Assembly (NCBI RefSeq): GCF_900217815.1
Contig: NZ_OBMT01000001.1
Location: 124,001 to 188,000, forward strand
Direction of reading: 5' to 3'
Source of the DNA: Rhodobacter maris
Lineage (GTDB): Bacteria; Pseudomonadota; Alphaproteobacteria; Rhodobacterales; Rhodobacteraceae
DNA length: 64,000 nucleotides
Shown here: positions 24,163 through 28,791 of the stretch, one piece after another
Layout of the letters: the number at the start of each line of letters is the position of its first letter
Numbering within the stretch: position 1 is the stretch's first letter
Made by a program: the position numbers and the translations under genes
The notes under the pieces: generated by a model
The model's input: only the letters and a program-made list of their open reading frames with translations
Databases searched by the model: none
Told to the model about the DNA's origin: nothing

Positions 24163-25614
24163 GTGAGTATGCAGAACCTCGATCTGAACGGCATGGACTA
24201 CCGCAAGGAAGTCGAACGCCTCTACGGTCTCGAATATGGGCGCCGGCTGGATGCCGCATTCCGGTTCGCGCTGCTCCTTGCGGGGGGCATTTCACTCTAT
24301 TTTTATACCGGCGAAGATCGCACCCTGTGGTGGATCGGCGGCCAGACAGTCCTGCATCTGCTGCATTTCACTTACCTGCGCACCCGCAAGAGCACTTGCA
24401 ACTTCCGTGAGGTAATGATCGCCGGCGTGACTTTCTGGGCGATCATCGCCGCCTTCATCTGGCTGCCGGCCTGGATGATCGTGCAGGAAGATCCGGCCTT
24501 GCGCATTGCCGGTGCCGCCGGGATCGGCGCGCTTCTGGTGTTCCTCATCCACCGCGCCGACCGGGTGCTTTCGGTGATGGTGGGCGAGGTCGCAGTGGTC
24601 GGCGTGGCGGTGGTCTGGATCCTCTATGCGACCCTGACCAAGGTCTCGGACCCGAGCGCGCAGGTTGGCGTGGCGCTGACCGGGGGCGGGCTGTGGTGCT
24701 ATTTCACTGTCACCATGTTCACCAACCGCCGGATCCGGATTGATGCGGAACGCGCCGCGCAACGCTCGGTACAGGCCCAGAAGATGGAGGCGATCGGCCA
24801 GCTCGCGGGGGGCGTTGCCCATGATTTCAACAATATTCTGACCGCGGTGATCGGCAATCTCGACCTCTATCAGGACATTCCCGAACCTGTGGAGCGCGAT
24901 GCGCTGGTGCGCGAGGCGCGCCTTGCCGCCGTGCGTGCGGCCGATCTGGTGCAACAGCTTCTCGCCTATGCGCGCCGTTCGCCGATGCAGGTGGCGCGGC
25001 GTGACGTGGGGGCATTGATCGAGCAATTGCAGGTGCTGACCCGGCGGCTTCTGCCCGCGACGATCTCGCAAAGCTTCGAGGCGCCGCGCGATCCGCTCTG
25101 GGTGGCGCTTGACGAAAGCCAGTTTCTCACCGCGCTCGTCAATCTCGTGGTCAATGCCCGCGATGCGATGCCCGATGGCGGCACGCTGCGGGTGACGACG
25201 CGGCCCGTGCACCTTTTCACCGATGATCCGCAGCCCGATGGCAGTGTGTTGCCGGCGGGCGCTTACGCCGAGGTGACGGTGGCCGATACCGGTTCCGGTA
25301 TCCCGCCCGAGATCCTGCGCCGCGTCACAGAACCGTTTTTCACCACCAAGGCGGTGGGCCAGGGCTCGGGGCTCGGGCTCAGCATGGTGGAAGGTTTCGT
25401 GCGCCAGTCGGGCGGAATGCTCTCGATCGAATCCTCTGATGAAGGCACGGCAATGCATCTGTTGCTGCCGATCGCCGCCCCGGAAGATACGCCCTGTCCG
25501 GGACCGGGCCCTGGCATCGACGATCTGCGCAGCGCTCTCCCGCCAGAGGCGGGCGCCCCGGCCCGCGGCGCTCTCCCCCCTCGCAGTGACGGGGGCATAC
25601 GCCATATCGCCTGA
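24163..25614 (+). CDS. Membrane histidine kinase
   Basis: The 483-residue protein has about six N-terminal membrane helices (35-205), followed by a dimerisation/phosphoacceptor helix with the H box [16 protein letters not shown]. The ATP-binding domain contains N box [11 protein letters not shown]1 DTGSGI, F box EPFFTTK and G2 GSGLGLSMV. The H box is of the AHDFNN type usual in hybrid kinases, but no receiver domain follows; only a 40-residue proline-rich tail does. No response regulator gene is adjacent. The start may be GTG 24163 or ATG 24169, and no clear ribosome site distinguishes them. The sensed signal is unknown. Confidence 0.9.
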
Positions 25615-25689
25615 ACCGATTTTCGCGCCTCGACCGGACTGGCCTTTTGGGGGCTTTTCATTTGCGCCATCTCCCGGCATAGTTGCGCC

Positions 25690-25782
25690 ATGACACGGAT
25701 GACGATCAGCCTTGCCTGCACCGGGGGCGCGCCTGCGCCCATGAGTCCCGTGTCCGGTCTCCTTCTTCTGAGCCTGCTCTGA
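25690..25782 (+). CDS. leuL: leuA leader peptide (leucine-rich)
   Basis: A 30-codon reading frame begins with ATG at 25690 (or the in-frame ATG at 25699) and ends in GLLLLSLL just before TGA. Six of its last seven residues are leucine. It lies 130 bases before leuA and the final codons form part of a hairpin. This is the classic layout of an amino-acid-responsive attenuator. I know of no database entry for this peptide, and the call rests on sequence and position. Confidence 0.75.
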   Translation: MTRMTISLACTGGAPAPMSPVSGLLLLSLL

Positions 25783-25858
25783 GCGTGCCCACGGGCGCGA
25801 CCGCTCAGAGGTGACAGCGCCCGACCCGACCAGCCCACACGAAATGGCGAGAGGCTGG
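25777..25858 (+). promoter_or_regulatory. Predicted attenuator hairpins of the leuA leader
   Basis: Hairpin 1 has a 9-bp stem ctctgagcg/cgctcagag (25777-25785 with 25802-25810) that includes the last Leu codon and stop of the leader. Segment cgggcgc (25792-25798), in its loop, can instead pair with gcgcccg (25817-25823). A third stem ccagcc/ggctgg lies at 25830-25858. A ribosome stalled on the Leu codons would block hairpin 1 and favour the alternative. No U tract follows, so the output mode is uncertain. Confidence 0.55.
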
Positions 25859-25914
25859 CATTCGGGGCCAACGGAAGCTAAGACACACCTATCCCACGAG
25901 ACCGAGACAGACCC

Positions 25915-27474
25915 ATGACCGACAAATCCCGCGTTCTGATTTTTGACACCACCCTGCGCGACGGCGAACAATCCCCCGGCGCCACCATGACCCATGACGA
26001 AAAGCTCGAAATTGCGATGCTGCTCGACGAGATGGGGGTCGATATCATCGAGGCCGGCTTCCCGATCGCGTCCGAAGGCGATTTCGAGGCGGTCTCCGAC
26101 ATCGCCAAAGCGTCGAAGAATTCCGTCATCGCCGGGCTCTCGCGCGCCAATTACAAAGATATCGACCGTTGCTGGGAGGCGGTAAAACACGCCGCGCAGC
26201 CCCGCATCCACACCTTCATCGGCACCTCGCCGCTGCACCGGGGCATCACCAATCTCGATCCCGAGGAAATGCTGACCCGCATCCATGACACCGTCACCCA
26301 TGCCCGCAATCTGTGCGACAACGTGCAATGGTCAGCGATGGATGCAATCCGCACCGAGCGCGATTACCTCTGCCGCGTCGTCGAATGCGCGATCAAGGCG
26401 GGCGCCACCACGATCAACATCCCCGACACCGTGGGCTACACCCTGCCCTCGGAAAGCGCCGACATCATCGCCATGCTGCTCGAAAAGGTGCCGGGCGCGG
26501 ATGACGTGATCTTCGCCACCCATTGCCACAACGACCTCGGCATGGCGACGGCGAATGCGCTCGCCGCCGTTTCCGCGGGTGCCCGCCAGATCGAATGCAC
26601 GATCAATGGCTTGGGCGAGCGCGCGGGCAATACTGCGCTCGAAGAAGTCGTGATGGCACTCAAGGTGCGCCGCGATCTGATGCCCTATCAGACCGGCATC
26701 GACACCACCAAGATCATGCACCTCTCGCGCCGTGTGGCGCAGGTTTCGGGCTTCCCGGTGCAGTTCAACAAGGCGATCGTCGGCAAGAACGCCTTCTTGC
26801 ACGAGTCGGGCATCCATCAGGATGGCGTGCTGAAAAACGTCGAAACCTTCGAGATCATGAAGCCCGCCGATATCGGCATCACCGAGACCAATATCGCGAT
26901 GGGCAAGCATTCGGGCCGCGCCGCGCTGCGCACCAAGCTGCGCGATCTGGGCTTTGATCTCGCCGACAACCAGCTCAACGACGTCTTCGTGCGGTTCAAG
27001 GCGCTCGCCGACCGCAAGAAGGAAATCTATGACGACGACCTGATCGCGCTGATGACCGACAGCGCCGCCAATACCGACAGCGATTATCTGCAGGTGAAAT
27101 GGCTGCGCGTGACCTGCGGCTCGGACGGGCAGGAAGCGGAGCTGAAACTGCTCGTCGACGGGGCGGAGAAATCCGCGCGCGTGCCGGGCGACGGGCCGGT
27201 GGATGCCTGCTTCAAGGCGGTCAAGGCGATCTATCCGACCCGCGCGCATCTGAAGCTCTATCAGGTCCATGCCGTGACCGAGGGCACCGATGCGCAGGCC
27301 ACGGTTTCGGTGCGGCTCGAGGAAGACGGGCGCATCGTCACCGGCTCGGCGGCGGATACCGACACCATCCTCGCCTCGGTCAAGGCCTATGTCGGCGCGC
27401 TCAACCGGCTGCGCGTGCGCAGCCAGAAAACTGCCCCCGATGCGGATGTGAAATCGATCAGCTACAAGCTCTGA
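25915..27474 (+). CDS. leuA: 2-Isopropylmalate synthase
   Basis: The 519-residue enzyme condenses acetyl-CoA with 2-oxoisovalerate in the first committed step of leucine synthesis. The TIM barrel begins with TTLRDGEQSPG and carries the metal-binding HCHNDLGMATAN segment near residue 203. A linker and the C-terminal leucine-binding regulatory domain (about 395-500) follow, so feedback inhibition is likely. The length is normal for the class I enzyme. Upstream is a leader peptide rich in leucine codons, and downstream is a hairpin terminator. Confidence 0.97.
   Translation: MTDKSRVLIFDTTLRDGEQSPGATMTHDEKLEIAMLLDEMGVDIIEAGFPIASEGDFEAVSDIAKASKNSVIAGLSRANYKDIDRCWEAVKHAAQPRIHTFIGTSPLHRGITNLDPEEMLTRIHDTVTHARNLCDNVQWSAMDAIRTERDYLCRVVECAIKAGATTINIPDTVGYTLPSESADIIAMLLEKVPGADDVIFATHCHNDLGMATANALAAVSAGARQIECTINGLGERAGNTALEEVVMALKVRRDLMPYQTGIDTTKIMHLSRRVAQVSGFPVQFNKAIVGKNAFLHESGIHQDGVLKNVETFEIMKPADIGITETNIAMGKHSGRAALRTKLRDLGFDLADNQLNDVFVRFKALADRKKEIYDDDLIALMTDSAANTDSDYLQVKWLRVTCGSDGQEAELKLLVDGAEKSARVPGDGPVDACFKAVKAIYPTRAHLKLYQVHAVTEGTDAQATVSVRLEEDGRIVTGSAADTDTILASVKAYVGALNRLRVRSQKTAPDADVKSISYKL

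Positions 27475-27693: not shown

Positions 27694-28791
<1,098 letters not shown>

Follow-up and report, generated by a model that had tools for sequence, protein, structure and literature searches.

A conserved leucine-codon leader upstream of leuA in Rhodobacter maris and other Alphaproteobacteria, a candidate leucine-responsive translational attenuator

The classical attenuator of the enterobacterial leu operon is the Leu_leader of Rfam, and in translational attenuators of the erm/cat type a ribosome stalled on a short leader open reading frame (ORF) unmasks a ribosome-binding site. The LEU element of Actinobacteria combines a leader peptide with leucine codons, a pseudoknot or alternative hairpin and a base stem that involves the Shine-Dalgarno sequence (SD) of leuA (PMC1262725). 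A regulatory protein was proposed to act on this element, the leucine-rich peptide being a by-product (Seliverstov 2005, PMC1262725). The LeuL1 leader peptide of Streptomyces lividans, MRFGLLLLSCRGEGL, is leaderless and lacks a typical terminator (PMC8079986), and rnTrpL/peTrpL of Sinorhizobium meliloti is described as a leaderless leader ORF within a trp transcription attenuator that yields a small RNA (sRNA) (PMC10117765). A survey with Rfam motifs used the leucine attenuator, and according to this survey such motifs may stem from gammaproteobacteria (PMC3766115). Here, a leader element is described upstream of leuA, the gene for 2-isopropylmalate synthase, in a stretch of 64,000 nucleotides from Rhodobacter maris (contig NZ_OBMT01000001.1, positions 124,001 to 188,000). 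This whole stretch is called the window, and all coordinates refer to it.

The R. maris locus and the actinobacterial LEU element both place a leader peptide with a run of leucines before leuA, and neither has an intrinsic terminator. Two helices in the form of a pseudoknot or alternative hairpins and a base stem from the leucine codons to the start region of leuA may be common to both as well. The leader described here also looks leaderless, as is reported for the leuA leader of S. lividans (PMC8079986). The two elements differ in that they belong to different phyla, that the LeuA protein of the window matches TIGR00973 and scores far under the cut-off of TIGR00970, that the base stem in the family of the window, the Rhodobacteraceae, lies mostly beside the SD, and that an extra hairpin in the window's genus separates two of the pairing segments (D and E below). 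The readings differ as well, a regulatory protein in the account of Seliverstov et al. and ribosome stalling in the present one. With the enterobacterial leu attenuator the locus shares the leucine-codon leader peptide, the alternative hairpins and the downstream leuA, but it has neither a U-tract terminator nor an Rfam match, the window leader being without a match at E-values up to 5 and six relatives at E-values up to 1. A stalled leader ribosome that frees a masked start, as proposed here, would be akin to erm/cat attenuation, whereas the proposed signal is uncharged tRNA-Leu and not a drug, and the control codons would themselves be the masking strand. The rnTrpL/peTrpL system likewise comes from an alphaproteobacterium and has a leaderless leader ORF upstream of amino-acid synthesis, but it is a transcription attenuator giving an sRNA, and it concerns tryptophan instead of leucine. 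Among the literature matches listed, including PMC4117421, PMC4833913, PMC6123439 and PMC4046766, no such alphaproteobacterial leuA leader was found. We give even chances to the view that the element is the alphaproteobacterial counterpart of the LEU element, with a leader gene that is leaderless and in which the control codons also serve as the strand masking the leuA start.

The leader element is real and conserved, and it very likely senses leucine through translation of its leader peptide, as judged from the sequences compared below. On balance, sequence comparison and folding models favour a leucine-responsive translational attenuator in which the start of leuA is masked by the leucine codons. 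The 30-codon leader ORF, MTRMTISLACTGGAPAPMSPVSGLLLLSLL-stop, ends 132 nt upstream of leuA (Table 1), and its C-terminus, G-L-L-L-L-S-L-L-stop, has six leucines among the last seven codons. Only one of the 1816 stop codons in the window with eight open codons before them is preceded by at least six leucine codons within these eight, namely the stop of the leader. In a 77-sequence set of relatives (defined below), a frame-blind search for the promoter pair CTTTTCAT and TATAGT/TATAAT, requiring a score of at least 10 of 14, reached the threshold in 70 loci, while shuffled stretches did so in 5–14 of 77; seven loci were without a recognised promoter. The first ATG 3′ of the promoter was in frame with the leucine run in all 70 promoter-bearing loci, across which the leader length ranged from 15 to 38 codons. 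In 69 of these 70 loci, 6–8 nt separate the −10 box from this ATG; with such a spacing transcription would begin on the ATG or close to it, from which we infer that the leader mRNA is probably leaderless.

The sample comprised 18 leuA loci of the genus and 80 from named species genomes, in total 98. The start of leuA could not be located in the ORF scan for L098 and L102, and 89 of the remaining 96 loci had an upstream ORF with at least four leucines in its last ten residues, typically ending RGLLLLSRL. These 89 include L105, in which the ORF first picked was the wrong one, and six of the seven loci without a qualifying ORF (L018, L047, L063, L072, L081, L088 and L097) carry the element. Removal of the duplicates L005, L006, L031, L035 and L060 and of the divergent loci L039, L096, L105 and L107–L110 from the 89 left the 77-sequence set. 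Across the family, third codon positions and the length of the leader vary while the frame and the leucine run stay. An RNA model built from the 77 loci, R1, matched 96 of the 98 leuA loci, 77 of these being its training set; L102 was missed with only 3 nt of upstream sequence, and L097 is a real miss despite enough upstream sequence. Each of 196 genomes drawn from the order, covering 87 genera and all in the window's family, gave one match to R1 (196/196 genomes, 87/87 genera). A search of the genome of R. maris gave no second copy near the leuA score, with 75.1 bits at leuA and 15.9 bits for the next best hit. In Phaeobacter inhibens, leuA and the leader element (72.3 bits) are both present on a plasmid of 17.9 kb (L154).

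A related element also precedes leuA in further families of the Alphaproteobacteria. A second model, R2, for which 61 sequences from the whole class were used, matched 99 of 385 class genomes, of which R1 matched 44; in 299 genomes of the phylum, whose share from outside the class is not stated, R2 had 44 matches, all in Alphaproteobacteria. The class and phylum searches used stricter filters, and their misses may reflect the model. Matches to R2 outside the family were obtained in 116 genomes (94 from the class search and 22 from the phylum search), and the 70 that were examined all lay upstream of leuA on the same strand, 131–283 nt from the LeuA signature. For the reading of leaders outside the family 80 loci were entered: 51 passed a strict pattern for the A:C hairpin described below and 16 failed it, 8 were without leuA under a narrow signature, although a wider one finds it, and 5 were repeats. 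In 19 of the 51, among L123–L147 and L160–L213, the leader has no leucine run but an L-R-L (CTT CGA CTT and alike) some two residues from its end; in these leaders the pairing with the leuA start seems to be kept, as if the pairing constrained the codons. On three LeuA-like genes of Streptomyces plasmids, two of which encode the same protein, R1, which models the alphaproteobacterial form, scored at most 7.8 bits, and no leucine-codon run was present upstream of one of them (L151).

The leader stop codon is part of a hairpin. Segment A, CTCTGAGCG, contains it and pairs with segment C, CGCTCAGAG, over 9 bp, and the loop segment B (CGGGCGC) is complementary to a further segment D (GCGCCCG) over 7 bp. 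The sequence-only reading of the window had pointed out the leader frame with its distance to leuA, the hairpin and the alternative partner of its loop, and the coordinates, translation and pairings were all correct; the check that it proposed, for conservation of the leucine-rich peptide and of both stems, the latter with compensatory changes, among relatives, came out positive within the family. It did not include the leucine-codon stem, the leader promoter with its probably leaderless mRNA or the likeness to the actinobacterial LEU element. In the alignment of the 77 sequences, A:C and an inner helix A′:B, counted in this test by its 3-bp core, had standard pairs in 97.8% of 1001 pair cells, and slid versions of the hairpin, used as a control, paired in 20–58%. 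Four pairs were changed on both sides, in 16 cells of which 15 belong to A:C, and this was equalled in 0 of 500 shuffles. The loop sequence is also very strongly conserved in the family.

For B:D, 73 of the 77 loci fitted the search pattern and four Paracoccus loci were left out. Since the pattern GG.G. / GC..C fixes most of the core, the informative pairs are the middle, the outer and the flanking ones, and the counts include kin sequences, which are not independent of each other. The middle pair was C-G in 63 loci, T-A in 8 (L033, L043, L052, L059, L065, L099, L101 and L106) and T-G in one, so that 72 of 73 were paired as against 65.1 when shuffled (0/5000), and the outer pair was standard in 49 of 73 as against 27.0 (0/5000). 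When the A arm was blocked in silico, the 7-bp B:D helix became the predicted fold. A:C and B:D cross, and they must be either mutually exclusive alternatives or a pseudoknot. Between D and the next segment, E, an extra hairpin is predicted in the genus of the window; for this stretch, fold energies of −12.2 to −20.6 kcal/mol were obtained in 17 loci of the genus, a few of them with differing shapes, and in four short relatives that were folded it reaches only −1.5 to −2.4 kcal/mol and no extra hairpin is predicted. The extra hairpin is predicted in L032 as well.

A third pairing connects the leucine codons with the region before leuA. In relatives, a motif located shortly upstream of leuA, GGCTAAGGA, is complementary to the leucine and serine codons (CTCCTTAGCC), and the counterpart of this motif in the window is segment E. 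The two strands co-vary: CTTGGT is matched by ACCAAG in L033, TCCTAAGCC by GGCTTAGGA in L067 and CTACTAAGC by GCTTAGTAG in L059, and in Paracoccus L034 a 13-bp stem of leucine codons spans the SD. In a swap test of the 77 loci with the last 45 nt before leuA, the own partners paired at −14.31 kcal/mol compared to −11.65 kcal/mol for swapped partners (standard deviation 0.31; 0/5000), and three control segments of the leader were not significant (4696, 1523 and 1280 of 5000). Shuffling of the leucine codons gave a family mean of −10.69 kcal/mol, and none of 100 shuffles matched the own pairing. Contiguous helices of at least 8 bp were found in 33 of the 77 loci, as against a mean of 8.2 with the codons shuffled. 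Outside the family, too, the pairing was better than swapped in the class-wide test (0/5000), and SD motif pairing there was modestly above shuffles (44 of 62 vs 30–40). It is this third pairing that favours a translational mechanism, and the proposal in the sequence-only reading that the mechanism may be translation- or Rho-based is thereby narrowed towards its translational version.

Three loci (L047, L063 and L088) have an ORF of 117–118 residues between the element and leuA, all three matching Cupin_2 above the cut-off, and their E motif is located 7, 8 and 7 nt, respectively, upstream of the start of this ORF and not near leuA. In these three loci the stem thus accompanies whichever start codon comes first downstream of the element, which is expected if translation initiation is the controlled step. 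In four other loci (L061, L077, L078 and L100) leuA lies 220–250 nt from the leader stop, and remnants of a Cupin_2 gene may be present in this interval.

The effect of ribosome position was modelled as the energy needed to open positions −20 to +10 around the leuA start in computed folds of 73 loci, omitting L061, L077, L078 and L100, in which more than 160 nt separate the stop from the ATG. With the first leucine codons masked, opening was predicted to be cheaper by 2.27 kcal/mol on average, 37 of the 73 loci becoming easier and 8 harder to open by at least 1 kcal/mol, while a control mask farther upstream gave a mean of 0.42 kcal/mol (18 easier, 9 harder). For the window itself, the predicted cost was 9.76 kcal/mol unmasked, 5.19 with a ribosome on the first leucine codons, 10.10 with a ribosome at the stop codon and 7.76 with the control mask.

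The proposed mechanism may be depicted as follows: The mRNA, probably leaderless, would start at the leader ATG and encode the peptide of 30 residues. When charged tRNA-Leu is ample, ribosomes would reach the stop codon and leave, and the RNA would refold into a compact form with the A:C hairpin, which B:D would either cross as a second helix or replace. In this compact fold the leucine codons would pair just before, or on, the ribosome-binding site of leuA, which would then be poorly translated. When tRNA-Leu is uncharged, a ribosome would stall on the first leucine codons and hold this strand, and the leuA start would open. The parts that we infer from sequences and models are that the mRNA is leaderless, that ribosomes stall, in which direction leuA responds and that its translation is what is controlled.

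Several observations weigh against this reading. The leader promoter was not in the output of a sigma-70 consensus scan of the window, and the whole window leader folds no better than shuffles (z −0.88), the z-scores of six chosen relatives that were folded ranging from −1.61 to −3.00. Beyond its core, B:D is at the shuffled level (inner pair 33 vs 34.6, outermost pair 34 vs 35.6), and outside the family it is unsupported, 1200 of 5000 swaps being equally good. The leucine-codon stem of the window's own species is not above shuffles (Table 1) and is a weak point of the masking reading. Taken locus by locus, only 30 of the 77 leucine-codon pairings beat at least 95 of 100 shuffles (5 of 77 for a control segment). 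Among the 48 helices of at least 7 bp, the distance from the helix end to the ATG is 17–20 nt in 19 and at most 11 nt in 9, and the stem thus flanks the leuA binding site more often than it covers it; pairing of the SD-like motif, seen in 28 of 55 in the family, is not above shuffled leucine codons (19–31). Outside the family, two upstream controls in the swap test reached 9 and 11 of 5000 and the third 947, and one control segment beat all 100 of its own shuffles; composition or kinship may therefore contribute there, and the family-level test is the one relied upon. Fifteen of the 51 leaders read outside the family have only 2–3 leucines in the last ten residues, and one, probably misassigned, has none. 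In the folding model, opening of the start is likewise made cheaper when the ribosome is placed on the stop codon, by 1.51 kcal/mol on average (33 easier, 5 harder). A further caution comes from Streptomyces mutations cited as inconsistent with classical attenuation (PMC1262725).

The explanation that competes best with translational masking is Rho-dependent attenuation of transcription, in which the position of the leader ribosome would decide on Rho loading or termination before or early in leuA. The structures would then expose or hide RNA, or would block leuA translation and so cause polarity. The absent U-tract fits such control, a poorly translated leuA would invite Rho anyway, and Rho has been suggested for cys leaders lacking a terminator (Seliverstov 2005, PMC1262725). 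Against this, the leader stop is only 69–90 nt from leuA in 49 of the 77 relatives, a distance too short to accommodate a Rho-loading site easily, and the leucine-codon stem near the leuA start would be superfluous. We consider control by Rho to be unlikely.

Still less probable is that the compact fold is a binding site for a regulator and the leucine peptide a by-product, as in the account of Seliverstov (2005). The strong conservation of A:C and of the loop sequence would agree with a bound protein, as would the Streptomyces mutation results cited in PMC1262725, but variation at third codon positions and in length leaves the frame and leucine run intact, and it is otherwise hard to see why the repeated codons should specify precisely the end product of leuA's pathway. 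A constitutive structure without regulation, merely tuning basal leuA translation or mRNA stability, is very improbable, given that 70 of the 77 loci retain both the leucine codons and the position of the promoter and that the element is present in all 87 genera of the family sampled. Intrinsic termination, with B:D as terminator and A:C as antiterminator, is the least credible of all: A:C and B:D would exclude each other if they form no pseudoknot and B:D emerges in the predicted fold with A blocked, but B:D has no support outside the family, the sole terminator-like site found by a scan of 25600–26000 (25641–25655) precedes the leader, and a run of at least four T within 12 nt follows D in 1 of 73 relatives and C in 1 of 73. 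The sequence-only reading had noted the missing U-tract in the window, and the relatives agree: behind arm C as behind arm D it is missing in 72 of 73, which speaks against an intrinsic terminator. Runs of four T are commoner than shuffled over the full stretch from the leader stop to the leuA ATG (10 of 73 vs 2.8), and not after the arms.

The features of the locus are compiled in Table 1. The neighbours of leuA are a gene for a CckA-like sensor kinase (24163–25614; NCBIfam matches below the cut-offs) and mreB (27757–28791), and with these neighbours leuA appears to stand alone in the window.

Table 1. Positions of the leuA leader features in the window and the basis of each assignment.
Feature	Position	Strand	Basis or remark
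−35-like box of the leader promoter, CTTTTCATT	25654..25662	+	position found in window
−10-like box, CATAGT	25678..25683	+	6 nt upstream of leader ATG
Leader peptide ORF, 30 codons	25690..25782	+	translation; promoter-to-ATG frame in relatives
Leucine-codon pairing segment	25756..25773	+	swap and shuffle tests; weak in window (227/1000 shuffles equal)
A arm, includes leader stop codon	25777..25785	+	A:C covariation
A′ arm, GTGCC, partner 25794–25798 within the A:C hairpin	25785..25789	+	minimum-energy fold
B arm, CGGGCGC, in hairpin loop	25792..25798	+	B:D covariation in family
C arm, pairs with A	25802..25810	+	A:C covariation
D arm, GCGCCCG, pairs with B	25817..25823	+	B:D covariation; fold with A blocked
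Extra hairpin between D and E	25825..25866	+	folding, window's genus
E, GCTAAGA, counterpart of the relatives' GGCTAAGGA	25877..25883	+	pairs with TCTGAGC 25767–25773, one G-A mismatch
GAGACC, exact complement of GGTCTC 25756–25761	25898..25903	+	11 nt before leuA ATG; predicted fold
leuA, 2-isopropylmalate synthase	25915..27474	+	NCBIfam TIGR00973 661.7 bits and NF002087 828.5 bits, both above cut-off

If masking of the leuA start by leucine codons is the correct reading, sensing and switching would be performed by the same approximately ten nucleotides, and masking by a codon run would constitute a distinct, terminator-free kind of amino-acid sensor. The device would then be either ancient and shared with Actinobacteria, or it would have arisen twice. 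A leucine leader without a U-tract need not mean Rho, as the leucine codons may mask. The 2005 case of how the actinobacterial LEU element works would be reopened, and the alphaproteobacterial form offers many natural variants for separating the coding of leucine from base pairing, for which Rhodobacter capsulatus or Cereibacter sphaeroides may be suitable as harmless laboratory hosts. The mechanism would explain how leuA is controlled across a large family whose members live in the sea and in soil, and perhaps in other groups.
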